Under the pieces are notes generated by a model that had not been told where the DNA came from, did no database searches, and worked only from the letters and a program-made list of their open reading frames with translations. A stretch of 64,000 bases of DNA from Glandiceps talaboti (lineage: Eukaryota; Hemichordata; Enteropneusta; Spengelidae), in contig NC_135563.1 in the NCBI RefSeq assembly GCF_964340395.1, positions 12,385,651 to 12,449,650 on the forward strand, read 5' to 3'. Positions 16,533-63,628 of the stretch are shown here, piece by piece. Position 1 is the first letter of the stretch. Each line of letters starts with the position of its first letter. A program made the position numbers and the translations under genes.

Positions 16533-16540
16533 TGACGTCG
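16533..16540 (+). promoter_or_regulatory. CRE-like site upstream of cytokine-like gene
   Basis: TGACGTCG matches 7 of 8 bases of the CREB/ATF element, about 315 bp upstream of the start codon. It sits in a locally CpG-rich segment (about 16460-16560) that differs from the AT-rich surroundings. It was identified by motif only. Its interest comes from sharing a short promoter with the kappaB and STAT-type sites. Confidence 0.4.
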
Positions 16541-16690: not shown

Positions 16691-16700
16691 GGGGAATCCC
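16691..16700. promoter_or_regulatory. NF-kappaB consensus site
   Basis: GGGGAATCCC is a full 10-bp palindromic kappaB site (GGGRNNYYCC), about 150 bp upstream of the start codon of the cytokine-like gene. Vertebrate IL6 and CSF3 promoters depend on a proximal kappaB element, so the placement is suggestive. Function is inferred. Confidence 0.55.
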
Positions 16701-16851: not shown

Positions 16852-19221
16852 ATGGCAACTCCAGGAAGAACTTCTAGAAAGTTTTTAATGACATACGAAA
16901 CTGGTAAGCATGTGTGATTTAATACATTTTCTCAAATTAAACAAAAAAAAATCACTTTTCGAACTCTATCCGACCATCATCAGACAGAATTATTCTTTCG
17001 GACACATTTATGATAATTGTCTGCATTTTTCCCCCAGCAGCAGTTGTACTGTTGGCGGTTTTAGTAGCATTTACTCAGGGAGCACCTGTCGCAACACTAT
17101 CACTAGAAGTCACCCAAGCGATCAGGAACGAATACCAACAGCTATTCAAAGCGACGGAAGCTTTGCAAGGCACCCACAAAGGCATATACGATAACTTTGT
17201 AAGTATTGATTGTCAGTTATTAAAGTTTTGTACATCTTTCATATATCCATGTAGAGTGAATGATTTAACGTCGTTTCCGCTTATATAGATGTAAGCACCG
17301 TGGCTACCTCAGTTACATTAACGACAACAGCGACAATTCGTTCAGCAATCATACATATATTTTCTTTAAAATAGCAAGTTTAAAAATGGGTAACGCGATG
17401 AACAACCCCATTAAATAATATATTTTCGTTGTCTTGTCGTGTCATGGTTTTTAAAGTAGACTTGCCAGCGAACTGGAAAAGCAAGGCCGAGGTCGAGAGT
17501 TGAATACCCCTTTCCTATTCCAACAGGCTACCACAACCAATAATGATGGTGTAGCCTACAGTTCACACATATATAGACACGTCAAATTAACCCAAATGAA
17601 TGACAAATCATTTCTTAAGAAAGAAAAAAAGCAGTAACAAATTTCATAAGGGCTACAATTTGTACGTCATCGGTAAATATTACGTGTATAATAATCAAAC
17701 GATAAACTACGTGTGGCTTTGCTGGCCTTGGAGTGGTATATATGGCACATTAATACAAGATATCAACGTGTCACTTCCGGTCTTCTTGTATGAGGCTTGG
17801 CGAAGCTGGCTTGAATTCCATATAATTTGTCATCTCACCGCCAATCAAATACAAGATCACTGCATCATGCAACCGGGACTGTTGGGGAAACTCCACTCTA
17901 TTTTGACTAATTTCTCCCTCGTTGTTTTCATTCAGAAACAAGTTCGCTTGAACGACATCGATATCAGCGACGACTTGGCAAGTTTCACAATTAGAGGTCT
18001 ACCGGTACCACTTTCTAGACATGTTTTAGACAATAGAGAGGTAAGACATTTTTTACATTTATTGAGAATAGTTACGTATACCATACTGCATGTATAAAGC
18101 GCACATACACACACACACACACATACACACACACACACATATATATACATGTACGCACGCACGGACAAACATGCATACATACATGCATACGTACATACGT
18201 ACGTGCATACATACACACACATACATACATACATACATACATACATACATACATACATACATACATACATACATACATACATACATAAATACATACATAC
18301 ATACATACATACATACACACATACATACATACATACATACATACATACACACAGTAGGTACAAGCAAGCAAGCAAACAAACAAATAACCCTGATCAGAAC
18401 GTATAATAGGATGTGTGATGTATCTCAGCTACCCATCAGTCATGTCAATAAACAGATATCCGGATGGCACACTTTGCTAAGCTACGCCATCAAACAAATA
18501 TACAGGGTTTACTTTGTTTTAAATTTATGATAAGCCCTTTCCAACCAACGTGGTATAAAATACAATCAATGTGTAACTTCTAGTTCTTCCTTTTTTCACC
18601 AGGAAAGAGATGTATTAGTTATATACAGAGACAACTTCAAAGTATTCCAATCATTCCTTTGTGCCATGCATATGGAAGAATTAGGACTAGAGGCAGCCGG
18701 TCTTCCTAATCCATTCCATGAAGACTTTGCAAGAATCCACATAGATCTCAGAAACCTCGTCGCCAAAGTAAATTCACTGGTGAGTAATATTGATATCCTC
18801 CTGACATTTGCATGCAGTTTCTTATTCAAAACACAACCGAAAGCCTTCCACAATTTTCTGAATTACAGGATTTTTGAATACAATAGATTAGTAAAAACTG
18901 TGGGGGTGTCTATAACATGTTTGTTAAATACATTGTTTAACTATATAAAAACACTTCACCTCACGCCAAGACACATTCCATAGCCTATTTTGTATAAATG
19001 TCGTTTCGTTTCTAATATTTTTTTTATCTTTTGAAATGTTTCAGCTCGATCTCTTGGGTCATGCAGATAGTATTGATACCTCAGAGGACATAACTGGTGT
19101 TGACTTCATGAGAAACGCACAAGTACGTGACTTCCGACACGTTAAAGTTTTGGAACAACTCTACGACTACTTACCAAGTGCAAGATTAACCATCGAAAAT
19201 CTTGGTCGCCTGCGTAGATGA
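16852..19221 (+). CDS. IL-6-family-like four-helix cytokine (five exons)
   Basis: Exons 16852-16903, 17038-17198, 17936-18040, 18603-18779 and 19045-19221 (TGA at 19219-19221) join in frame to 223 residues. All junctions are GT-AG, with intron phases 1, 0, 0, 0. The start is the first ATG after an in-frame stop (16780-16782), with G at -3 and +4. Residues 1-33 form a signal peptide (hydrophobic A-A-V-V-L-L-A-V-L-V-A, likely cleavage before P-V-A-T). The mature chain of about 190 residues has long amphipathic segments at about 36-68 (A), 107-133 (B), 143-172 (C) and 189-221 (D), joined by a long A-B loop (69-106). It has one cysteine (C126) and no N-glycosylation sequon. Helix D reads D-F-x3-K-V-L-E-Q-L...S-A-R...L, close to CNTF/CLCF1 helix D as I remember them. 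Exon number, phases and size match IL6/CSF3. Family assignment is inference from structure and motif; similarity to any one paralogue is weak. If correct, it would be a ligand for a gp130/LIFR-like receptor and the JAK-STAT pathway. Confidence 0.75.
18100..18385. repeat. (CA)n and (CATA)n microsatellite in intron 3
   Basis: CA repeats (18104-18140), a CATG/CGTA mixed stretch, and a long (CATA)n array (about 18195-18352) sit between exons 3 and 4 of the cytokine-like gene. All three frames on both strands stay open here only because of the repeat. Confidence 0.95.
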
Positions 19222-19895
19222 AAAACATTTAAAAGTGTAAGTTAAAGTTTGTGTTGACAAAGTCACCACAGACCACACTAATCAGGTGTTGTATACCGTT
19301 TTCTTTTCGTACTCGCCGGTAATGGTCAAAGCTTTTTTCACAGTATAAAAATCAGACCTCACCATGTTGTATTTATAATGGTGCTGATTGGTTAATTATG
19401 TCATATGACTGTCATGTGATGGTCATGTGTCCTATGATTTGGCAAGGCAATGTTTGCTGAGCTGTCATAATGAAATTAAATGTAGGGTTATGAATCCGAA
19501 TTAGATAAAGAAACAGTCCGATATTTTATAGAATTATATTGTTCAGATATGTTGTACAATATAATAACAAAATTAACTTTAAATTGAGTTGATTAGAATT
19601 AAATATATAATATAGATAGATAGATGGAGAGAGGGATGGATGGATGGATCGTTCGATCGATCGATCGATCAGGGTGGGGTTGTAGGCAAAGAACAGTGTT
19701 TGACATACCAGCTCAGAGTCTAGTGACATACATTTACATTTCATGCAACTTTTCTTTGTTGAGCAAAGAAACTTGTAAGAGTACATTTCCGGCTACTTTT
19801 ATTACAATAACGTGTGTGCCAAATGAACAGTATTATAGTTAGTTATTTCAATTGAGTAAATCTATTTATAAATAAAAGTGTACAATTTCGTATGT
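19222..19895 (+). promoter_or_regulatory. AU-rich 3' UTR and polyadenylation signal
   Basis: Downstream of the cytokine-like stop codon the sequence is AT-rich, with ATTTA pentamers at 19227-19231, 19371-19375, 19732-19736 and 19864-19868. AATAAA follows at 19871-19876. AUUUA elements destabilise many cytokine mRNAs. In AT-rich DNA some pentamers are expected by chance, so the regulatory reading is tentative. A GATA/GGAT/GATC simple repeat (19612-19671) lies within it. Confidence 0.4.
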
Positions 19896-20137
19896 GAAAT
19901 ATATGGATATCTCTGTACAGTAACTTATTTTTCTATTCGAAATGAAATGAACTTATCAATTTAGAATTACTTTATTTATTGTTAGGCATGTGTTTGAAAA
20001 AAACCTATTTATAAATAAGTGTACAATTACAAATTTGAAATATGATGGTTTTATTGTTTCATTTGGATTTATCATTGCTTTATTGTTGCTTAAACGTAAT
20101 ATAATTTTATAAATATGGCCTAATAAAAAAAATTGTG

Positions 20138-31357: not shown

Positions 31358-31424
31358 TTGTATGTATGTATGTATGTATGTATGTATGTATGTATGTATG
31401 TATGTATGTATGTATGTGTGTGTG

Positions 31425-31456
<32 letters not shown>

Positions 31457-31522
31457 TGCGTATGTATGTATGTATGTATGTAAGTATGTATGTATGTATG
31501 TATGTATGTATGTATGTATGTA
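31358..31522. repeat. (TATG)n(TG)n(TGCG)n compound microsatellite
   Basis: TATG units, then TG, then TGCG, then TATG again. It generates spurious His-Thr-Tyr-Ile frames. Confidence 0.95.
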
Positions 31523-34257
31523 TATGTATGCATGGTGAAGAATGAAAGAATGAAGAATGGAAATATGAAGAATGGAAACTTTCATATAATATATAACATC
31601 CATTTACAACAAAAATAATTTGTCCTTATAGCCTATTTTAAAAAATTGTTACAATTGTTAAAAATGGCGAATCTCTCACACAGCTATGGCATTTCTCTCA
31701 TGATTGTTACAAGCAATCAGTTAACTTCCCTTTTCAGTTCAGTTTTTGCTTTTCAAATCTGTACAGTTAGCAGTAAAATGCAGACCACAAACGTGCAAAA
31801 AATACAACTTACTTTTTTTTTCGACCAGGAGACGTAATTAGAGAATGAGACACGTTCATCTCGTATTTTACAAAATAAGTTACATCAATTATTGTGGAAA
31901 TGAAAGAAATTCCGGTGTTTTATCAACGAATGCTGAGGTCAAACTATTCAATGAACTGTGAAGGTTACGTTAGAACAGTTGTAAATATGGAATGCGTATT
32001 CGGTATTAGCGTTAGGTTCAACAGTCGTACATTTTATTGACGCAAGCAACACTAGTCAAAATAGTAGACCACACATCGCAGCGTTAAATTAAGACTAAAA
32101 GCAAAGCAGACATGCTTATTACATATTTACATGCCAAAACACTTAAAAACTAAAAAGTATGTTATGCTCGTAGAAATCATTGATAATGTCTTTACTTTAC
32201 TTTTTGAAACATGTTTAGTGCCGTCAATGAAAAGTCCCTCGGTTTCTAACAACCATCATACATGATTAATTTGCATAGGTGTATTACACATTCCACAATC
32301 ACGTTCCTTGATAGAGTGTTTTTCTATCAAGCCATGACGTCATTGAACAAGAGTGACATAACTTCACAACTGTTTCAACACACGGGTAGATATACCAATA
32401 GATTGGAAAACACGGCACCACGGGTTATGTTACAATATGATCGGTGTTAGGGACCAATTACATGCACCAGCATGACGTACAATCGTGGGTAATTTATTTT
32501 ATAATTAGCCGTGTTCAGATGACATTTATGAAGCCCCAGACACGACTGCAAATGCACCCTTACAAATACGACAACCAATTAATATATCACGAAGAGAATG
32601 CCATGTATTGACAGTGTTAAATGACCACATGAAGGTGTCATAATTTGAAATCATTAGTTTTCAGAGAGACGTGTTGAAAGTCATTTTGATTAATAGGGTT
32701 ACGTTCTCGTATAACAGTTTGCAAATAACTGTCATTGCCAGTGAAGTACTAGAATAATGCCTTACAGTGGAATAGATAGCATTGTTACCTCGAGCTATAA
32801 AACCTAATATCGGGGAATTAATCACAAGCATTGTGTAAAGGTCGAAGAACAACACCTTTAAAGTGGCCATAGTGATACAACAATTATTCCTACTTGATAA
32901 ATAAGGTGAAATAACAGCTCAAATCTGTGTTTGTAACGTAACAATTGCATAGACAGTTTAATTTGTCTTCACACATTTCTAAATAAACTGGATAAATACA
33001 CCTGTGCATACTATCACTACGTCACGTCCAGTCTGTGCGTGCGCCTGCCGCTTCCCTATATAATAACAATTTTGATTAATTTGCGTACTTGTGCTAAATG
33101 ATTACGTGTGATTATTCACTTTGTTCATAAATCACTTAATGTACATACAATAACAGACTTGTACACATTTATTTTTGAATTTTTAGCAATTTCTGCTGTA
33201 TGTTTTGTTTATATTGTTTCTCGTCCATATGTGGTTTGTATGGCGCATATAGTAAAGTGTTGTTATTCATCGCCTTATTTGATTATGTGCTGGTTAAATG
33301 CGACAAAGAACTCGTAATCGTAAACCTAGCGCCATAAAGGTCAATAAGTTGCAATCCCTGAGTAGTCCTACGAGGCCGATTAACAGTAGACATATTACAT
33401 ATATTTATAGTTTCTAAATTTCAGTCATTGAAGTTCAATTTGGCTGATGGACAGTGAATATTGATTTATTCACGCCGGAATAACGTCAATTAACCACCCG
33501 ATCTAGAAATATAGTTCTTGATTCGTTACCTCATATGCTGAAAATTAAGTGTTTCAAATGAGAGCATTCTCTGGTCAAGAAGCTTTCGCATGTTAATAAA
33601 TATGTGTATGTGCCACCTTTATCAAGACGCTGTTCACGTTGCCTGAATAACAGGTGTCTTAAATGAATGTATAACTGATTTTAAATGCAACCGCTGTGTT
33701 CATTTGGTAAGATGTAAACCTTCTTTGACTGGGGACGTAGCATGCGGCATATAGTATTATGAGCGTAACAATGTTCATGCTGTAGGTTGCAATGTCAGTA
33801 CGTGTATATTCATGTAGTTATTTTCACTTACAGACAAATACAGGTGGAATATTATACTTAAAATCAAATCGTTATTGTTTGCAGAATGTACCAACAACTT
33901 CAAAGCGTAACCTTTCAAGAGTAAAATTACAGAAAGTAAAATACCAAACAAAATACCATGAAGTAAAATTTATTTCATGAACATCGCTCCTACCCATACT
34001 TTATTATTTTACATAAATGTTAAAAGAGAAAACCAAATTGTAACATTTAAACATGAATTAATTATTAATTACTCGGCACGATAAATCATTTAGTTTTATG
34101 AATAGCAACCAGGGTAACACCTTCCAACAACTGTCATAATCTAAGGTTATTTAAAAACTCTATAAAAACTCTATAGCTATCAAATTAACTGTATTTTAGT
34201 AATTACATCAAATCATGCGAAAAATTACTATCATAACAAATCCCTTCTAAATGACTA

Positions 34258-37046: not shown

Positions 37047-38117
37047 TCAGCGGTCGGGTACAATTAGGTTGCCTCGACCCCCGGTCAGAATCTTCCGAAA
37101 CGCGTTTCTAAATTCTTTGTTGAACACGGTATAAATGACTGGATTTAACGCCGAATTGCACCATCCCAACCACGTGACAAATGAGAACAAAGTGTCTGAT
37201 AAAATACAATCCCTACACACGCCTAAGATAATGTTCACAGTAAAGAACGGTAGCCAGCAAAGAATGAAAACTCCCATCACTATAGCTAGTGTCCTAGCTG
37301 CCTTACGTTCTTTCGCTATTGATATTTGGGATCGTTCATTACGTCGTGTGTCCTTGGCCGGTATATGACGACGAGATGTTGTAGGACTTGAGTGTTCCTC
37401 GACATTTTCCACATTGACGTCTCCAGGTTGCACTTGAAGAACTGAGGCAACGGTGGCGATAGGACCAATTGTCCGAGCTCGTCGCTGTGCAGTACGGAAT
37501 ATCTTGTAATACAGAATAACCATCAAAAAACATGGGAAATAGAAGGACACACAAGATGAAATGACAATGTAAAATGGGTCGTCCGATAATACACAACCGC
37601 GGGTAGGAAGCCGATTGTTGGCTTTCAAGGCGATGGCGGCAGGGAACGATAAAACAGCTGAGACGGTCCAAACTATGGCGATGTTAACTTTGGCCATCCA
37701 AGGAGTACGCTTCAAAGAGTACTTTAACGGTGAGGTCACTGCACGGAAGCGATCCACCGAGATGGCACAAAGGTTAAGGATTGACGCTGTACACAAAAAG
37801 ATGTCGAGTGAAACCCACAAACCGCAGAATATTTCACCGAAATGCCACGTGCCTTGACTCACTTCTAGAGATGTTGCAAACGGTAATATTACCGATGAAA
37901 GTAAAAGGTCTGATATTGCTAAGGATACGATGTAATAGTTGCCAACGACTCTCAAAGTTCGAGTTTTCAACACTGCAACACAAACTAGAATATTTCCGAA
38001 TAAACCAAGTGACATAATACATACCAAAATTATCACTATTGTCACAGTGCGTGCGACATATTGTTCTGAGTTATTCAAATCCAATGTCACATTTGTTGTG
38101 TTTGATTTTGTCTCCAT
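37047..38117 (-). CDS. D2-like dopamine/monoamine G-protein-coupled receptor
   Basis: An intact intronless rhodopsin-class receptor of 356 residues. The start is fixed by an in-frame stop 12 bp upstream (38130-38132). The N-terminus has three N-glycosylation sequons (N6, N9, N15). Seven membrane segments are evident. Diagnostic residues include D70 (2.50), the C98-C175 disulfide pair, amine-binding D105 (3.32), three helix-5 serines S187/S188/S191 that contact catechol hydroxyls, C-W-L-P with F291/F292 in helix 6, and N-P-V-I-Y (325-329). The helix-3 run C-T-A-S-I-L-N-L-C-A-I-S-V-D-R is nearly that of vertebrate D2 receptors. A short tail after helix 8 and C301-x2-C304 in the third outer loop also fit the D2/D3/D4 class, which couples to Gi/o. 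The third inner loop (about 207-272) is shorter than in D2. The DRY motif is D-R-F. An alpha2- or octopamine-type ligand is an alternative, though less likely. Confidence 0.88.
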   Translation of the reverse strand: METKSNTTNVTLDLNNSEQYVARTVTIVIILVCIMSLGLFGNILVCVAVLKTRTLRVVGNYYIVSLAISDLLLSSVILPFATSLEVSQGTWHFGEIFCGLWVSLDIFLCTASILNLCAISVDRFRAVTSPLKYSLKRTPWMAKVNIAIVWTVSAVLSFPAAIALKANNRLPTRGCVLSDDPFYIVISSCVSFYFPCFLMVILYYKIFRTAQRRARTIGPIATVASVLQVQPGDVNVENVEEHSSPTTSRRHIPAKDTRRNERSQISIAKERKAARTLAIVMGVFILCWLPFFTVNIILGVCRDCILSDTLFSFVTWLGWCNSALNPVIYTVFNKEFRNAFRKILTGGRGNLIVPDR

Positions 38118-39187
38118 ATTTCGAACGAGTTAATCCGGGTAATGCTAAGGGCTTGGTTGCTAACACCAATATCCGAATAGCTCAGCTATGGTTGAAGCAT
38201 AGGCCAACATATCAAAGGCTCGCCAACACTGTGACCAGGAACATTGGCTATACATAGCAATGAGTTCAATTCACCCGGGGTACAGCGACCTAGCTCTCTC
38301 GCTGATGAAAAGAATACTTTCTTTACATACATCCGTGCTTGACACAATCTTCAAGTTCGATTTTCGTTTTCGCGTGTAGTTCGTCGCGGGGAACACGCTG
38401 CTGGGTAGCCTCCATATGCAGGTTTCTCCTAGCACGACCACTGAACGCTCGATCTATTCTGACGCATGATTTGGCGTTCTGGCGTTCACAGCAGTCGGCT
38501 CATGCGTACTCGACTAATTTACCATGCGTGTGAAAGCAAATATTGCGATACGCGGGGAGTCCTGAATATGAAAAAAACAGCCAGTCAGTAATAGACATTC
38601 ACTCAAGTATGTACTTGTGATCGCCATTCGCCCAACATGTAACCTGACATAGCATCACATTATCTTAATTCGGCAGTTCTTGCTGTAAAATGTAAAAATT
38701 GCCCTACAAAGGAAATACACGAGAATTACGACCATGATATGGCGAGCAGCTGCAATTAAAGTTACGGTCAATGTAGTACGAATGACGTCAACTCATTGTG
38801 CCTTAAATGTGCATTTGCAATGTCTCGGAATCAAAATAATCAAACAACATTAAGAACCCAAAAAACCTTGATAGACGATCCGACATTCATTGACTTAACA
38901 TTTCGATATTGCTATTTAATTACATACATACATAAACGGGATTTAGTTTAGTTAGTGTTGCGATACTCAAGAGACGAGAAACCAGAGCTTTGAAAGCCAT
39001 CTCTTGTAGGTGATGAATGAAATGCATGGATATTTCTGGTAATATCAGACAGAAATATTCCTTAGGTTAATGCTTTTGTAAACAATCGATAAATATACAT
39101 GTACAGTTGAACAGTATGGATGTTACAAGCACCTTTACTTGTATCACTAAAGTACTAATGTACGTATTGTATTGCATGCCACATATG

Positions 39188-50354: not shown

Positions 50355-50617
50355 TCACAAACCAGCATAGGTATAACTGTTGTGATTAGTTACGTCATTA
50401 GAATGACTCTCTTTCGTTCCGCTGTTTATCACGCATGTCTTCTTAGATGTTGCGGCTCCCACATGAAAGTTCACTGATTGGCAGGCTTCTATTTGAGTGC
50501 ATATATTAGTGCAATGTTGTAGAGTGAAGGCCTCGGTGGTGAGAATAGCGTGATTTTGTAGATATTTGCCACTTGATATGCGGTAGACGCTAGTGACGTA
50601 ATTTTCAGTACGTATTC
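50355..50617 (-). CDS. Terminal exon: PAN/apple domain 2 and stop
   Basis: Acceptor ..CTTCTGCAG at 50618-50619. Entering in phase 1 gives 86 residues ending in TGA. It has a PAN-like core: K-Y-L-x-N-H-A-I, then C-x3-C-x5-C-x-S-V-N-F, a later lone Cys before I-N-S, and a final Y-T-Y. The preceding FN3 exon ends in phase 1, so the join is in frame. It lacks an ATG, so a simple start-codon-based ORF search misses it. Confidence 0.75.
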
Positions 50618-50744
50618 CTGCAGAAGGGAATTCGAAAGTAGAGGGCGATTGTTCATTAAAGAAATTTATAATGAAAGGGCATTTAAAAGGTATTTATTAT
50701 TCAGTCAATTCATTAATTTGTCTGTCTGTCTGTCTGTCTGTCTA

Positions 50745-50786
<42 letters not shown>

Positions 50787-53700
50787 CGTCCGCCCGCCCG
50801 TCCGTCTGTCTGTCTATTTATTAATTTATCTGTCTCTTTATTTGTGTTTATTTGTGTATTTTGTTCAGTTGCTCATGAACTACTCGACCTATACAGATCT
50901 CTGTCTGTCTGTATCTCTTCATGCTCGTCTGTCTAAATTTGTTATAAATGGATAATGACCATGGATTGTTGAATGGATAGGTGGATGGATGGGCTGGTTT
51001 GGTTGATGGATAACTAGATAATTAGATCGACCCACACATTATGCAGACCCACACAATTATCTACATGTCATCACACTACTATACAGCTAAGTAGTGAATA
51101 GAGACACAATAAAATAATTGCTTACTTGCTTCCTTCATAGTGAAGTTTAGGGGTGGATCCGACGCTGGCCCTTCACCGTAACTATTGTACGCTGTCATAT
51201 GAAACTCATATTCTGTTCCAGGAGTTAGTGACGCCATTTCCAAAGTATGTATTGATGTTGAATTAACGGTTACTGACTTAGTAGTTCCACTCTGTTGATT
51301 CCGCTTCCAGTAGTATAACTACGGGTTATGAAACAAAGAAGTTTATGGCAGTATACCAATGTTTGTCAGTGATAGTAATAATTTGTAAATCCAATATTAT
51401 ATGTCTGGACCACAAGTTTTAAAATTCTTCTGATGAAAATAATGTAGTATGTGTTGTTCTGATATTCTTCAAGAAAAGTGAAAATGTTTTGTGTTAACGT
51501 CGTAATGTCAGATATCAATTTCAAGCTATATATTTGTGGTTTCTTATATAATTATATCATCTAATTAAGCTTCACTTTTTTGTCTTACCTTGAAGCCGAT
51601 TATATCGGAATTTTCCGAATCCATTTGAGCCGGATCGCTCCAGGAAAACAAAGCAGCAGACGGGCTTTGTACAGACACTTCTATGTCATTCGGTGAATCA
51701 GTCGGATCTGTGTTGGAATTTTGAGAACAAAATAGGGATGTTGTAAAAAAAAACCCTGCTGTTGATGATGTACTTTGTGTGAATATAACTTCACTACTTA
51801 CAATTTGCAATATCTAAAAGTCATTACTTATTACGTGAAATTTAAATTGTGCCAACTTAATATAATCAATTTAAGCGAACAACTAAAGACGTTCGCTCAA
51901 AAAAAATCCAACAGTGACAATTATAGTTTGAAAACCCCAAGAACTGATTAACATTTTCAAAATGTACTCTAACGGTAACGTCTATTATAGCTCATTCCAA
52001 AGCACAGGATATATTATATCTCTTTGGAACAGGACAGAAAATAGAGGGCGTCCTTTAATCATGTTCACTTACTATGATTGTCTTCACATATATAGTAATT
52101 AGAATCGGCACAGCTTTTATCATCGTAGCCATTGTATTGATCAAATCTTGCACAGTTCTCACTGCCTCCTGAATTGTCTGGTGTACCTGACAACCAGTTA
52201 GAACTAAGGTCGTTTTCGTGTCCATTTGCCCATAACCATGTACCTTTAATAGATATTCCAGAATATATGCACTAGTTTACTAAAATGTTCATTAAAATGA
52301 TTAGTATTATAGGAAAAGGCAAGATAATATTCTGAATGCATTTTACGTGATGTATTCGACGAAAAGTACAAATCGGATGGTGTTTAAAAAAGGAAGATAT
52401 CACCACCTAATTTTTGTTCACGTGCTCGTTTTGTGGCTTTTGCGTTGCCCATCTTACGTGTTTCCAACACTACATATCATCAAAGAATTAGATATTCGTA
52501 TTTCAACGAGTCACTGACAGGAACTTAATATATTGTAGAGTAGTTTGGGATCATAATGTAAGGATGTGCCATGGGCCAGTTTCTTATTTCTTCTTACAAT
52601 TTATACTGCAAGACAGATTTATATGACATTTAATTTATATTATCTCAGTAAATTGTATTGGTAACCCTCTAACTATAGCCAGTCTATCAGCAAGAAAGCG
52701 TATAGTTCTTGTAGTGTAGGATATATCGACAACAGAGTATGAAAGTGTTGAAATGACTTAGGCATAACGTGCGACGGTTTCGGACACGTTTAGTGGTGCA
52801 TGCGGTAGTTGGCCATCTGTTGAGATGTAAAGTTAAAAAGGTTACCAACTATGTATTTACCTTCCGTCGATGTATCAGTAAGTCCAATCCAATAACTCCT
52901 GGAGTAGTATCGATATCGCATGTAATGACTAATGAACGTCCATTCCTCGTTATTTTCAATTATTACGAGATCACTGTCCATCGATTTACAGTCACTTTGA
53001 GCATTGGCATATGAGGCTGCAGATGAACTAAAATAGTAGCAACTGTCTCCGAGTGACACCCAACTACTGCTACAGCTCGGATCAACCGTCGGTTGAGGTA
53101 TTGCGGATGCTCCTATGAAGTAGAGCAAACATTGAGCAATGGAATTAAAACATTTGGTCATTTTGATTGTCAACAGTATTATGATTCGCGTCCTCTATTG
53201 ACGCCTGACAGTACTGAAATTAGGTTGTGGCCCTCCATTTATGCCCCTCGTATCTGTTTGATAGTTACATGATGCGTGTACCTGGGCCAAGTATCTAAAT
53301 GCGTGATTATGTCACATTGTGATTTTGGTGTGTTACGTCAAGATAGTTGATGGGAAGTAATTAAGCAACATAAAGCAAATAATTTATGAAACCTTGTAGA
53401 GACATGGGGATTCCATAAACACTATAAGTACCTATAGCAGCTTTGCATATAAACTGTCGTGACGTTTCTACGTTAGCGTCAATCCAATCGTCATCATCTC
53501 GTGCATACATTAGTACGGCGTTTTCTAACTCGTCGCCATTTGGTTCAGAACTGCGCCAATTCGAATAAGAATGGTCAGAGCCATCTGCTTCCACCCATTG
53601 ACCTACAAGAAAGAGAAAGACAACTGGGATTATTGGAATCACCTTTTAGATGGATATTTACCTACACCATGTTACCTTAAGTATTGTGTTTGACGTTTCT

Positions 53701-56604
53701 GCTGTCAAATTTGCGAAATAACTATTAATAAAAACAATTACTGTTAATTATCTAATTAAGACACAAATAATAGCTTCCTTTGTCAATGGATTTATCACCC
53801 AGTAATACACCATGTCACTCAGGAAAATAATTATGTGTGCCCTACCACCTTTTGTGATCGGATGGGGCATGGGGTTCTGTTATACCCGCAATGTAGTAAG
53901 AGTGTTAATGCTATCATAACTAAAACTGCCCTAATCCATTTTCCCTACTGTACAGTATGTAGTAATTTGTATTTCCAGAGTCTTAATCACCGTTTTGACA
54001 GTAAAGGTTCACAAAAATCAATCAAAACTTGTTTGCCAAATTATATTTACAACTTATATAGTATATTTTCGACTTGAAAGAGTAAATTATCAAAATCATT
54101 TGTTGGCAACTTTGTCTTTCCTTCATTCGAGAATACTACCGTGCATTGAAAAAATGTAATACTCAATGTAGGAAAAATTGCAGAGATACACATTATGCAC
54201 ACCTTCATTCTCAATATCATTGTAACCAATAAGGAAAGTAAACGTAGTTGCAACTGTCCAACGTAACATCCTCCTCAAGAAATTATACTCGTTCTCGTCA
54301 TTGGTGCTTGTTAAGTGACCTGAAATTTAAAAACAAATTCATAATGCATGCCGTGTCAAACTGGTCATTAAACAAAATAACACGTGGTTGTCTGAGGTTC
54401 GCCTTTATATCAAACATTCGATTGGAGCCACTCAGTAGAGTTTTTTCTAAAGATTTCATTCCAACATGCAAAGATAATCTTGTTTATAAATAGTTGAAAA
54501 TACATGTTAAGTCGACTAGCATAATCCGTATCCTTGCATAAACATATGCTATTGATTGTCTGTAAACGTGTCACCATGCAATAAAATATTATTGTATATA
54601 GGTATGCAAATAAGGCTATCTACGATATAATTCAATGGGGCGTGTGTGCCTATGTATGTACTTATGCTTCTAGTGTTTTCTGAAGGACTTTCACTCGCTT
54701 TGATCAGCCACAAAAAAAAACCCGCGAGCACTCGTTTAAATACCAGGCTATGCCACACGTACACTCGTGCGGATCAGTTTATAACATTGCGGCTGAAGTA
54801 GCAAGATGTACGATGTCACGACCGCAGATATAAAAGGGAATTCACATGCATGACGTATACGTACCTCCGTAACCTTGACACCATGTTTCTGCCTCCAGCC
54901 AGGTTTTGGTTGATGTACCAGGATAGTAGCAATGACTGTCATATTCAACCCACCCTGAATCACAATTTTCTTGTTCTGAATGAAAAATGAAATAACAATC
55001 GCTTAAAATGACTTTGTTTTCTAGATACAGATATTTTCAAGTTTAAAATATGCACTCACTCAAAAAGAGCCCTGGTTTCTAAATACACTGATACCAGTGC
55101 ATGTCTAAAACTGCTTACAAGTTACATTGGTAGTTCTGCATACGAGGCCGTGACTAATTGCGGCCAAATATTTTGAATGAATTCAGTGTTTATCAGTTTA
55201 TTCGATTGCCAATGAGCTGTATGTACAGATTTTGCGGGGACAAGCTGGTCCGTGACCAGTCGTGGCCAACGACTCTGAATTATTTCAGTGCATATTAGTA
55301 TATTCGACTTGCACGATTAAATTATGTTGCAGATGAAGTTACTTTGAAGATGAGCCACCCTACAACTTGTTACTAAAATCTAATAACAATGCATTACTTT
55401 AGTGCTATAACAACCCAAAAAAATTCAGTTCGTTGTGAAAAATGAGACTTTAAGAAGTAAACTTACCATTGAAAAGATTTTCTCCTTCATCAACAACTGT
55501 ACAAAAGGAAAATTACAACAAATCATTATTAATCTCCAAAATGCTTCAATATTCTTTTTAAATGGTTAGCTTACATGATATTTTATGATATCAATTCCTT
55601 CTTGACCACGTCTGAAAAAATCAACCAATTATCATTTACAATTTATATTTACATAGCAAAATTTGTCATTTTCAAAATGAAGGAGAAGTTTGAACATGAT
55701 AGTAATTAACTGGTACATCTCTTTGTTCACAGGCAAACCTTTTGAATACGAATTCCAAATAGTTTTGTGCAACATGTAATGCATCATGTCCCACTAAAAG
55801 AGACTGTGAATGGTATAAAAATATCATATTTTGTGTAAGCTCGAGAATACACTGGAAGCTAGTTAAGGTGACACGAATCTTCGTCTGGCTGCACAAAATA
55901 TTTACTAAATTGCAACCCTTAATTTTCTATTATTGTATTTAATATCTAATATTGCTAAATCATCGTATTGTTTGACACGAAAAAAATATCATCAACATTG
56001 CTACTTCCTATATAGTCTGATAGACAAAAATTCCACGTCATTTACACTTTACTCCATTTCTATGCTTGCACAAAATATACGTTGTTAAAGTGTATATGAC
56101 TTTGCGAAAATGTAAACATGAAGGTAAGATTTTTGATGAGCCAGATGACGTTTTGTGTTGAGTCAATTAACTTATAATTATGTAGTGTGCTACATCATAC
56201 TGTATACATATCATGACCTACCTAGTGAAATCATGAAAACATGGCATGCTAAACATAAATGTATGTAACTAATTATATACCAATTATAGCAAGATGTGAT
56301 GTTTCAAATCAGTTTTATACATACATTTCCTGATATAGATACGATTATTTGATGTCCCGGTGGTGAGACCACCATTCATTATGTGATTGTATTCACTCAG
56401 GTAACACTTTCCGTCGTAGTCAAACGAGCGACACGTATAGCTAGTACGAGATGCGCATTCCGCGGCACATTCTTCAGCAGTTTGGTCGGATATTTCTTCA
56501 TTGTTATTGTTACTAATATACTTGTATGGTATTAGATGGAAGTCTAATCTTGACGTTAATACGTCTGCAAAGAAAACAGAATAAAATGTTTAATATTCCA
56601 ATTA

Positions 56605-61599: not shown

Positions 61600-63628
61600 A
61601 TACAATAATATTAAACACTGTACATGGCAATGTTTTCACTTATTTCATGACATTCAGAGTCTCTTGTGTAGGGATACGAAACATACCTAACTTTGATGGT
61701 GGATTTTTATCTACATTACATAAACTTGCGAGAAATAGTTTTAAATATTAACACCAAAAAAAGGGGCAATTTACAAAATACACTCCACCCCGTTATATAT
61801 TAAATAATTGCGGCCTGGAGGCTTTTGGTTGGGAAATCAGCCTATCATGTCATTTAGTAAATCTGTATTCTTTTATAATAATTTCGGAAAATGTAGAGAT
61901 AGTTGATACCTGGACATTGAAAGAGCGTGCATTGTTTCATCGTAGCTATGGATGCTAATTAGGTCCGCATCATCATCGAGAGCACGACATGCAGCCACTG
62001 CTTCAAACCAAGTTTTTGTATCTTCATAAATCTGATAACAACCATTGCCATAATGAGTCCACCCAGAATCGCACAAGTCTTCGTCAGATGTATCAACTGA
62101 AGCATGCAAAATACCATCAATAGTCACTAGGTATAATGTTAATATAGTAATGAAAAAGCCATTCCTAGTGGTATTTCAATGTGTTGCTTGTCAGGCATAC
62201 ACATCCTCAAATATTGTGACTTCATTTTTATGCTACTCTTGTCATTATCATAATCAAAACAACCAAACTAAGATCCAGGAGACTTGTGGGAAAGTACACG
62301 TATATTTTCCCCCTGGGGCGCCATTACAGTTCTTGTTTCAGGGGCAATATATTGGGGGAAATTAAATGATACCCCGTCTGAATTGGCCTAAAGTGACTTG
62401 GACATTCGCATAATAACGTTTACACGGGGCACAGTATATCATGCCTTGCAGATCATCCTGACGACGTTGGGCTTTCCGATTGGGATGCCATCTACCATAC
62501 TCACGTTGGGCAGAATACGCCATGCGCATATCACATACGCTCATAATTGGGCAGTAACATTTATACAATTTTACAATGTTACTTCGTTTCTGAAATTATT
62601 AATATATATTTCCTTACAGTTGCAAACGAGTTTGAATACTTCCTACAGTTATGAGCATAAAGGATGGTGGTTTCGGTACATACTAAACGTACAAAGTCAA
62701 ACTTGCTTTCTAGAAGTCATGAGTCGTACTTTTGATATTTTATCGAAATAGAATCATACGAAATATGGTTATGTTGCGTGTGTTACCCTTATAGTTATTG
62801 TATATCATCTCATCATTGCCCGTCGCCACAATGCCTTCTGTTTCCGACCATAACACAATACATTAGTTTGTGTTTCAGTGGTTCACCTACCTGTTTCTTT
62901 AAAGAACATAGCGAACACATCAGCACGTGCGGTGTTTCCTGGTTGGATGAAAGAATAATTTACTCAGTTATTTTTTTTTTACATTTATTATGTGCATAAG
63001 ATCGACCACTCCTGCAAATCTAACACTGCCCACTTACAGTCTGTTATGCTCAAGTCACCAGTAACAGTATCTACCAGTCTGTTTATTGCTTTTATGTATC
63101 GGCTAAGACCACAATAAAGTACAGTGGTCTGGTCAAGGTATCGGTGTGGATAACATTATCGGTGACTTAAATATATGTCAATAGCATTCTCTCTATGGTG
63201 AAAGTCACGAGAAAAATCTCGTGATGCAGAGGTGGTAAAAGTCATGTTGCTAGCAAATGCGAAGCACGGGTCACTCGTGCTTCGCACACACGAGGCAACT
63301 TCGGGTCGCCCTCTAGTGCTGAACTTAGCAACAACGCCAGCCAGTGTGGTGAAAGTGGCTTATTGGACATCAACTGAAACAGCTATAGGACGATATCAGT
63401 CAAAGTCAGTGTCAGTGTGCATGTTCTGTATTATATTTACCAGAGGCCCAGGCCTGACGTGTGGTAGATGTACTGTATATGAAATTAGGCCTTGTTTCCA
63501 TGTTCTCCCAATCACATCCTCCACTGCTAGATGTTGGATCAGATACACATACCCAACCTGCGTCGCCATTACATCCACTGTAGTAACTGCTTATGAACCA
63601 ATGTCTCCCAAGAGTAGAAGTACTGTGT
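50355..63628 (-). CDS. Secreted C-type lectin mosaic protein (3' 19 coding exons)
   Basis: Nineteen exons on the - strand join without a frame conflict into about 976 residues. From 5' to 3': 63628-63441, 62938-62891, 62096-61910, 61264-61140, 60885-60775, 60120-59995, 59323-59163, 58834-58702, 57546-57361, 56564-56325, 55496-55467, 54975-54865, 54319-54203, 53602-53432, 53112-52861, 52243-52073, 51707-51589, 51318-51126, 50617-50355 (TGA). Domain order: unassigned module, CTLD1, CNTNAP-type fibrinogen-like domain, PAN1, linker, CTLD2, CTLD3, FN3, PAN2. Most domain borders are phase-1 introns, typical of exon-shuffled extracellular proteins. No membrane segment or anchor follows PAN2, so the product should be secreted. 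The first visible exon starts in phase 2, so the signal peptide and any further modules lie beyond the window. One donor is GC (58701-58700). A carbohydrate- or matrix-binding role is inferred from the domains; the true function is unknown. Two adjacent genes instead of one remain possible (see the CTLD3 entry). Confidence 0.8.
50713..50816. repeat. (TGTC)n microsatellite
   Basis: CTGT/CCGT tetranucleotide repeats in the last intron of the lectin mosaic gene. The Cys-Leu-Ser-Val frames over it are artefacts. Confidence 0.95.
51126..51707 (-). CDS. FN3 domain (two exons)
   Basis: Exons 51707-51589 and 51318-51126 are joined by a phase-0 intron. The domain has the FN3 pattern: an N-terminal P-x2-P-N-D start, the core W (F-S-W-S-D-P) in strand B, Y-Y-W in strand C, L-T-P-G-T-E-Y in the E-F region, and A-Y-N-S-Y-G-E-G in strands F-G. 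About 100 residues, a complete single repeat. An intron inside FN3 near strand C is common in animal genes. Confidence 0.88.
52073..53112 (-). CDS. C-type lectin-like domain 3 (two exons)
   Basis: Exons 53112-52861 and 52243-52073. A Pro/Thr/Ser linker precedes C-x3-W-V-x-L-G-D-S-C-Y-Y-F, then W-T-F and Y-W-I-G-L-T-D, then the second half with S-E-N-C and Y-Y-I-C. All fold cysteines are present. The Ca2+-site triplet that is EPN or QPD in sugar-binding lectins reads T-P-D, and there is no W-N-D, so calcium-dependent sugar binding is doubtful. An in-frame ATG at 53161 would put a hydrophobic, signal-peptide-like leader directly in front of this exon. An alternative first exon or separate gene start here is therefore possible. 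Confidence 0.85.
53432..54975 (-). CDS. C-type lectin-like domain 2 (three exons)
   Basis: Exons 54975-54865, 54319-54203 and 53602-53432, all phase 1. It reads C-D-S-G-W-V-E-Y...C-Y-Y, W-L-E-A-E-T-W-C, then G-H-L-T-S-x-N-D-E-N-E, F-L-I-G-Y-N-D-I-E-N-E-G, then E-P-N-G-D-E-L-E-N and a final I-C. The EPN triplet typical of mannose-type sites is intact. The cysteine normally after E-N is alanine, and the cysteine expected after W-I-D-A-N is valine. The second conserved disulfide is therefore missing both partners, while the outer one is kept. Confidence 0.85.
55467..55496 (-). CDS. 30-bp linker microexon
   Basis: A phase 1-1 exon of 30 bp with a good acceptor (TTTTGTACAG) and donor (GTAAGT). 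It encodes an acidic linker between PAN1 and CTLD2. Being symmetric, it could be skipped without changing frame. Confidence 0.55.
56325..56564 (-). CDS. PAN/apple domain 1
   Basis: A single phase 1-1 exon of 240 bp. It reads L-D-F-H-L-I-P near the start, then E-E-C-A-A-E-C, C-R-S-F-D-Y and C-Y-L-S, the spacing of a PAN/apple domain. These domains mediate protein or carbohydrate contacts in secreted proteins. Confidence 0.85.
56608..56652. repeat. (TA)n microsatellite
   Basis: TA repeat in an intron of the lectin mosaic gene. Confidence 0.95.
57361..60120 (-). CDS. CNTNAP-type fibrinogen-like domain (four exons)
   Basis: Exons 60120-59995, 59323-59163, 58834-58702 and 57546-57361 encode about 200 residues. 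It starts S-C-G-E-W-K-R-K-G and has I-D-P-D-G followed by F-R-V-Y-C-D, then M-D-Q-M-K, C-Y-Q-Y-L-K-Y-E-C, A-W-Y-D-R-D-G, C-A-C-G, C-N-C-D and L-T-D-like K-D-Y-L-P-V-x-K-L-x-F-G-D. This follows the order of motifs in the fibrinogen-like region of contactin-associated proteins and similar invertebrate secreted proteins. The assignment is by remembered pattern. One intron (58701-57547) uses a GC donor and holds an inverted-repeat element. Confidence 0.8.
57789..58657. mobile_element. 869-bp inverted-repeat (MITE-like) element in an intron
   Basis: Bounded by the 12-bp perfect inverted repeats CCTTCCGTAAGG (57789-57800) and CCTTACGGAAGG (58646-58657). The 5' end also contains a small palindrome, CCTTCC-GTAA-GGAAGG. 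Inside is a GT-rich stretch, then a segment (58168-58295) shared with 15405-15575. The frame at 58050-58313 has no known transposase motif. Probably a non-autonomous DNA transposon inserted in the intron between two exons of the fibrinogen-like domain. No clear target-site duplication was seen. Confidence 0.65.
58988..59067. repeat. (GA)n microsatellite
   Basis: About 40 GA units in an intron of the lectin mosaic gene. Confidence 0.95.
60775..62096 (-). CDS. C-type lectin-like domain 1 (three exons)
   Basis: Exons 62096-61910, 61264-61140 and 60885-60775. It reads C-D-S-G-W-T-H-Y-G-N-G-C-Y, W-F-E-A-V-A-A-C, Y-W-I-G-A-H-D-L, W-E-W-I-D-G, E-P-S-N-G, E-D-C-A-A-L, W-N-D-A-S-C and Y-I-C. All four fold cysteines of a long-form CTLD are present. 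Calcium-site 2 is E-P-S plus W-N-D, so coordination may persist with altered sugar choice. A second in-frame acceptor at 62127-62128 would add ten residues upstream. Confidence 0.88.
61529..61602. repeat. (AAAT)n microsatellite
   Basis: About 18 AAAT units in an intron of the lectin mosaic gene. Confidence 0.95.
62891..63628 (-). CDS. Unassigned Cys/Trp-rich extracellular module (two exons)
   Basis: Exons 63628-63441 (188 bp, entering in phase 2) and 62938-62891 (48 bp, phase 1-1). The module reads G-R-H-W-F-I-S-S-Y-Y-S-G-C, D-A-G-W-V-C-V-S-D, G-G-C-D-W-E, P-N-F-I-Y-S, W-A-S-G-N-T-A-R-A-D-V-F-A-M-F-F. I recognise the style as one seen in secreted invertebrate mosaic proteins, but I cannot name a family. 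Good splice sites and phase agreement with CTLD1 support it. It may begin in an exon beyond the window. Confidence 0.65.

Follow-up and report, generated by a model that had tools for sequence, protein, structure and literature searches.

Whether hemichordates possess a cytokine of the IL-6/CNTF type is the question raised by a five-exon gene of the enteropneust Glandiceps talaboti. Ligands of gp130-like receptors are largely absent from the record outside vertebrates and insects, and a 2026 survey that included a hemichordate places IL-6 family cytokines, in its accessible text, in vertebrates only, tracing IL6R back as far as molluscs, with JAK and STAT reaching sponges (PMC13203501). The premise of the preliminary description of the locus was that vertebrate-type IL-6/CNTF ligands are not generally described in invertebrates though gp130-like receptors are, and our literature search found no report of an IL-6-type ligand from a hemichordate. 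The gene lies in a window of 64,000 nucleotides (C16:12385651-12449650), the whole stretch of DNA that was analysed, and the G. talaboti genome (590 Mb, 47 contigs) was searched in addition. Elsewhere in the window the minus strand carries a single-frame rhodopsin-family GPCR (37050-38129; 7tm_1, E 1e-68) and PAN-domain and C-type-lectin-like frames (50358-50693, 52793-53194, 56287-56589 and 61876-62175), the last of which has no match other than the UL45 lectin-like model, at a score under the cut-off. Tandem arrays of the (ACAT)n type, both long, occupy 18165-18353, inside intron 3 of the candidate gene, and 31359-31534.

The window gene is real and encodes a predicted secreted protein. Exactly the model first proposed, a secreted protein of 223 residues from five exons, was obtained when the gene was rebuilt (Table 1), with exons of 52, 161, 105, 177 and 177 nt and introns of 134, 737, 562 and 265 nt, all of them GT-AG and in phases 1,0,0,0. 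The gene is more than a chance assembly of reading frames, because its spliced product can be aligned over the entire length with three complete proteins predicted by NCBI, the N-terminal region absent from the NCBI model of this locus included. Hydrophobicity peaks in the 11-residue stretch at residues 19-29, and the mature protein is about 190 residues long. This signal core, the mature length and the helix spans of low-confidence models (see below) are those of a secreted long-chain class I cytokine (160-200 residues, with extended loops between A and B and between C and D and a short turn between B and C). The single mature cysteine that had been claimed is C126, the only one in the protein, and no N-glycosylation sequon occurs in the 223 residues.

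Table 1. Positions of the gene, its flanking motifs, its paralogues and the receptor reading frames in G. talaboti. Plain numbers are window positions; C-numbers denote contigs.
Feature	Position	Strand	Remark
CRE-like site TGACGTCG	16533..16540	+	motif match, upstream region
STAT/GAS-like site TTCTAAGAA	16639..16647	+	motif match
Palindromic NF-kB-like site GGGGAATCCC	16691..16700	+	motif match
TATA-like box CATAAAA	16735..16741	+	motif match
Coding exon 1	16852..16903	+	start codon and N-terminal region ahead of the signal core; ends in phase 1; matched in three paralogues
Coding exon 2	17038..17198	+	hydrophobic signal core and predicted helix A
Coding exon 3	17936..18040	+	A-B loop with invariant GLP.P motif
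Coding exon 4	18603..18779	+	short turn separating predicted helices B and C
Coding exon 5	19045..19221	+	C-D loop, predicted helix D, stop codon
AATAAA polyadenylation signal candidate	19871..19876	+	motif match
Paralogue	C16:4.43M		LOC144446674
Paralogue	C22:14.87M		LOC144450721
Paralogue	C16:12.49M	-	about 37 kb past the window end
Paralogue	C16:1.75M		member that matches Pfam CNTF
Intronless receptor ORF, L030	C6:20015502		copy
Intronless receptor ORF, L031	C10:3201579		copy
Intronless receptor ORF, L032	C10:3371794		copy
Intronless receptor ORF, L034	C23:13371756		copy
Intronless receptor ORF, L035	C31:53176		copy
Further receptor ORF place, L033	C10:13643390		left out of comparison
Further receptor ORF place, L036	C10:13667030		left out of comparison

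NCBI annotates the locus as LOC144446222 (P0001, 175 aa), which is identical to our model over exons 3-5 and lacks exons 1-2. Its first 23 residues are read from intron 2 (window 17867-17935), and because it starts there it is without the signal peptide and helix A. The full-length NCBI matches to the window protein are LOC144446674 (72% identity), LOC144450721 (69%) and a protein of Ptychodera flava (41%), each with a similar N-terminus, and all four entries are labelled uncharacterized. Protein database searches (3, 4 and 4 hits) returned no relatives other than these four hemichordate proteins; because the method depends on shared 5-residue words, absence from other taxa is weakly informative. 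With LOC144446674 as query the genome yielded 25 exon-level matches at E ≤ 10, some of them not real, and intact genes of the family number at least five in G. talaboti and at least one in P. flava. Pairwise identity among the five modelled genes ranges from 77% to 36%. Synonymous divergence was computable for seven of the ten paralogue pairs, with dN/dS of 0.39-0.60 among three close copies and, as rough values near saturation, 0.21-0.29 in four distant pairs. Highly diverged copies of exon 4 form a further cluster, spaced at about 10 kb, at C16:6728717-6759879 (L026-L029), with degenerate copies containing stop codons in between and an upstream frame with a signal-like stretch that may belong to it.

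Standard searches gave little for the window protein itself. Pfam returned no family at E ≤ 10 and phmmer against the PDB found only an NRPS fragment (E 0.74), while PDB sequence searches with both of our profiles and with the CNTF-matching paralogue yielded noise or nothing. The P. flava protein likewise had no Pfam match, and the consensus of the six-sequence family matched no Pfam family at E ≤ 1, which counts against the cytokine reading. Failure with the window protein is expected, because helical cytokine families are mutually below BLAST detection and have been placed by exon-intron structure, as stated in the accessible text of PMC2654155. The exception within the family is the paralogue at C16:1.75M, residues 105-233 of which match positions 46-174 of the Pfam CNTF profile (PF01110) colinearly along 129 residues; the E value of 6e-4 refers to a single protein, out of six members scanned. 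At 19.7 bits the match lies just under the cut-off of 22.7 and is the sole such match among the six; for calibration, human CLCF1 scores 23.5 bits on the same profile and human CT-1 is unmatched at E ≤ 1. The profile check against the LIF, CNTF and IL-6 families that had been proposed at the outset thus gave a CNTF match below the cut-off in one paralogue and no match in the window protein. No unrelated family was a better match above any cut-off. The one nominally lower E value, that of NCBIfam cas_Cpf1 (two of four members; E 3.6e-5 in protein P0003), was rejected as noise because its scores of 21.7 and 10.1 bits are far below the cut-off of 300 and concern a helical segment of a 1288-position model.

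Alignments to 28 reference helical proteins, 26 of them with provisional sequences, point in the same direction as the CNTF match. In plain global alignment the C16:1.75M protein stands 5.7 SD over shuffles against human CNTF and 5.4 SD over shuffles that keep the hydrophobic pattern; CT-1 is next of the 28 at 3.6, and CLCF1 (1.0) and IL-6 (0.9) are unremarkable. With the six-sequence profile, ranks 1-5 are CNTF (z 7.1), G-CSF (6.0), IL-6 (5.8), PRL (4.6) and OSM (4.4), followed by CLCF1 (4.3), CT-1 (3.8), LIF (3.1), GH (2.7) and leptin (2.6), so that the first ten of 28 are all long-chain class I cytokines, with cytochrome b562 (2.2) coming after them. Removing the CNTF-matching paralogue leaves long-chain class I proteins in ranks 1-8, headed by IL-6 (4.8), G-CSF (4.4), PRL (4.1) and CNTF (3.9), and removing P. 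flava leaves them in ranks 1-7. A rank test of nine IL-6-type targets against the rest gave P values of 2e-4 to 4e-4 in four parameter settings and 9e-5 to 7e-4 in further settings, values that overstate independence because the targets are related to each other. IL-11 and IL-23A had no stand-out score in the profile alignments. Single sequences carry less: the window protein gives weak z scores of 2.0-2.7 against CNTF, CLCF1, CT-1, LIF and OSM, with apoA-I equal to OSM (z 2.6), and the P. flava protein has no clear preference, EPO being highest at 3.1. A hidden Markov model (HMM) of human CNTF, CLCF1 and CT-1 ranked all six members of the hemichordate family among the first 11 of 31, alongside LIF, IL-11, OSM, G-CSF and apoE and above human IL-6; three of eight non-cytokine controls (haemoglobin alpha, calmodulin and apoE) also fell below 0.05 against pattern-keeping shuffles with this model.

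The fold would run from helix A through a long A-B loop to helices B and C, which a short turn connects, and from there through a long C-D loop to helix D. Two AlphaFold models are of low confidence (mean pLDDT 40.2 and 38.4; pTM 0.33 and 0.30), and both have helices at the four expected places, with helix D in two pieces, in addition to a signal helix and short helices in the A-B loop. Their helix order suits a four-helix bundle, although topology is unreliable at that confidence. PDB structure look-ups with these weak models returned ferritin-like and unrelated rows, to which we give no weight because model confidence was low. Of the four long amphipathic segments in the preliminary description, the positions agree with these low-confidence models, but a simple moment test set helix A alone apart from shuffles (P 0.017, against 0.41 for B, 0.12 for C and 0.18 for D). 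The Tyr-Leu-Pro at residues 207-209, invariant in all six aligned members, sets a proline midway along the final predicted helix; this counts against the cytokine reading and is left unexplained by the CNTF template.

The arrangement of exons is closely similar to that of vertebrate genes. Human IL-6 and G-CSF have introns in phases 1,0,0,0 and exons that hold, in order, the start, the signal and helix A, the A-B loop, helices B and C, and the C-D loop with helix D. The same five coding exons and phases are found in four of the five modelled genes (the window gene and three paralogues, two of which are the NCBI proteins), exons 1 and 2 being fused in the fifth. MAFFT alignments that were blind to the introns put the three phase-0 introns no more than 10 residues from their counterparts in IL-6 and G-CSF in three of three settings; the human exon lengths were checked only by their sums against the protein lengths used. 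The GH and EPO genes also have phases 1-0-0-0, with the third phase-0 intron of GH displaced by 12 to 25 residues, the first of EPO by 12 and the third of EPO by 7-10. For the IL-6 gene the accessible text of PMC5165036 gives five exons and four introns.

Three other readings of the family have to be weighed against this evidence. That the gene encodes a non-cytokine secreted alpha-helical protein, apolipoprotein-like or specific to hemichordates, and resembles CNTF by its amphipathic pattern only, would suit the low AlphaFold confidence, the ferritin-like look-ups, the moderate scores of apoA-I, apoE and haemoglobins in the same tests, and the sub-cut-off matches to unrelated helical families (DUF6887 0.0029, DivIVA 0.0073, DUF489 0.017 and KinB_sensor 0.019). 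A pattern alone is hard to reconcile with the z of 7.6 that CNTF reaches against pattern-keeping shuffles with the six-sequence profile, with the colinear CNTF match or with the five-exon architecture, and no apolipoprotein model appears among the Pfam matches; we consider this reading unlikely. Class II helical cytokines of the interferon/IL-10 type are likewise secreted helical proteins with multi-exon genes, and the nearest parallel to the first exon seen here is the short one ending in phase 1 that IFNL2/3 add (PMC2654155, accessible text). Four phase-0 introns are described for the IL-10 family and IFN-lambda genes in the same text and for fish type I interferon genes in that of PMC4929537, against one phase-1 and three phase-0 introns in the window gene, which has helices B and C in one exon. 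IFNA2, IFNB1 and IL-10 are, with calmodulin and GM-CSF, the lowest five of the 28 targets with the six-sequence profile, and the mean over the four targets of class II is 0.2-0.6, making membership of class II very improbable.

A long-chain class I cytokine on another branch, nearer to leptin or to prolactin/growth hormone, would share the 1-0-0-0 phases of GH and EPO and would account for the z of 3.3-4.6 that PRL attains with the six-sequence profile. Leptin also heads the reciprocal search of the 28 with a hemichordate HMM (leptin 9.2, CNTF 6.2 and PRL 4.3 bits) and exceeds CNTF in hhalign, where probabilities are low throughout: 12.6% for leptin, 6.5% for CNTF and 2.8% for the CNTF, CLCF1 and CT-1 group with the six-sequence alignment, and noise save for leptin (9.5%) with a four-sequence alignment. 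The leptin match, however, extends over no more than 34 and 32 columns, where CNTF and its group reach 113-166, and the alignment to the group covers 166 columns with helix A to helix D in register, at that 2.8% probability. Pfam over the six members gave CNTF (0.0006) and IL11 (0.26), with models of leptin and of the hormones absent at E ≤ 10, and an IL-6-type target ranked first in all eleven alignment settings, so that placement on this other branch appears distinctly improbable.

Our data suggest, then, that the product of the window gene is probably a secreted class I helical cytokine of the long-chain group and of IL-6/CNTF type, belonging to that branch or to its nearest stem lineage, within a small enteropneust family of paralogues. 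The IL-6-superfamily candidacy put forward in the preliminary description is upheld by the sub-cut-off CNTF match of a paralogue, by the profile alignments and by the gene architecture, that is, by the gene family rather than by the window protein alone. The cytokine reading is well supported, short of proof, whereas whether the family belongs to the gp130 cytokines as a genuine branch we regard as about evenly balanced; the best name is IL-6/CNTF-like class I cytokine.

Upstream motifs shared by the family, which we take to be CRE, STAT and NF-kB sites, bear on how such a ligand might be regulated. Within 900 bp upstream of the ATG all five modelled genes have the CRE core TGACGTC, a TATA-like box and the STAT motif TTCNNNGAA, one copy of the last lying 211 to 253 bp ahead of the start codon in every gene, while the NF-kB-like GGGGAATCCC is present in the three close copies and missing from the two diverged genes. 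The sharing represents at most three independent lineages, because three of the genes are close copies, and the motifs were picked after the sequence had been seen; 4.3% of 900-bp stretches of the window contain both the CRE and the STAT motif and 5.7% the NF-kB motif, the gene's own promoter counted. An AU-rich element as a 3' mark of cytokine genes was dropped as a candidate: the single TTATTTATT at 19972 is discounted because it lies past the first AATAAA and the motif occurs 24 times in the window against 4.4 expected. We envisage that transcription would be switched on through the CRE-type sites, and in the three close copies through the NF-kB-type site too, and that the secreted ligand would bridge type I cytokine receptors of the gp130/CRLF1 kind and so activate JAK/STAT signalling, with the STAT site in its own promoter providing feedback.

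Candidate partners for such a pathway are present in the same genome. STAT_alpha exons lie at C17:172-174 kb, and a search for the IL-6 receptor binding domain (IL6Ra-bind) gave seven places, with equal matches just under the cut-off. The one examined in detail encodes a receptor: in its ORF a signal peptide and an Ig domain are combined with a cytokine-receptor module (C-x-W, WSDYG box) and FN3 domains. Its best solved relatives are gp130 (E 4.6e-12) and CRLF1 (5e-12), the latter being the vertebrate partner of CLCF1, and no membrane anchor is evident in this gp130/CRLF1/IL-6R-alpha-like ORF. The five of seven copies that were compared, on one strand, share 99.3% identity or more along 3.2 kb. 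Two larger stretches, with 98.3% identity along 9.1 kb, carry other intronless host-like genes, from which we conclude that the receptor rides on a multi-copy element; a putative mobile element, its repeated unit longer than 9 kb in the two copies compared, seems to have captured a cytokine receptor.

We would venture, with some doubt, that the hemichordate ligands are orthologous to the gp130 cytokines, that the ligand-receptor-JAK-STAT module was complete in the deuterostome ancestor with NF-kB/CRE induction and STAT feedback in place, and that the captured soluble gp130/CRLF1-like receptor may act on the ligand. If the cytokine reading is true, a hemichordate ligand with vertebrate-type gene architecture dates the family to before the chordates, and the defined hemichordate sequences make a direct binding test possible.

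Among invertebrates the family may be compared with Drosophila Unpaired (Upd), described in the accessible text of PMC7378365 as a mostly helical ligand that acts through JAK/STAT via Domeless, a distant relative of gp130. The likeness is that of one invertebrate helical ligand to another, by description, and no fly protein was among the database matches to the family in a search that needs shared short words. Vertebrate ligands contact their receptors at site 3 through FXXK (CNTF, CLCF1, LIF, OSM) or a tryptophan (IL-6, IL-11, p28) and at site 1 through a tryptophan at the end of the A-B loop, according to the accessible text of PMC10022904. Neither FXXK nor a tryptophan stands at the start of helix D in any of the six aligned sequences, which differ in this from IL-6 with its site 3 tryptophan, and the site 1 tryptophan is absent from the same alignment; binding to a gp130-like receptor, if any, would therefore involve other residues. 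IL-6 and G-CSF (z 5.8 and 6.0) are alike in their five coding exons, phases and allotment of helices to exons. Both carry disulfides, which are impossible in the window protein because it has one cysteine. The CLCF1 and CT-1 genes have three coding exons against five in the hemichordate gene. CNTF, CLCF1 and CT-1 nevertheless provide the best sequence and profile relation to the hemichordate family, with similar length and helix layout, and CNTF itself has GMP in the A-B loop where the hemichordate proteins have GLP and shares with them K-V-L-x-x-L in helix D.
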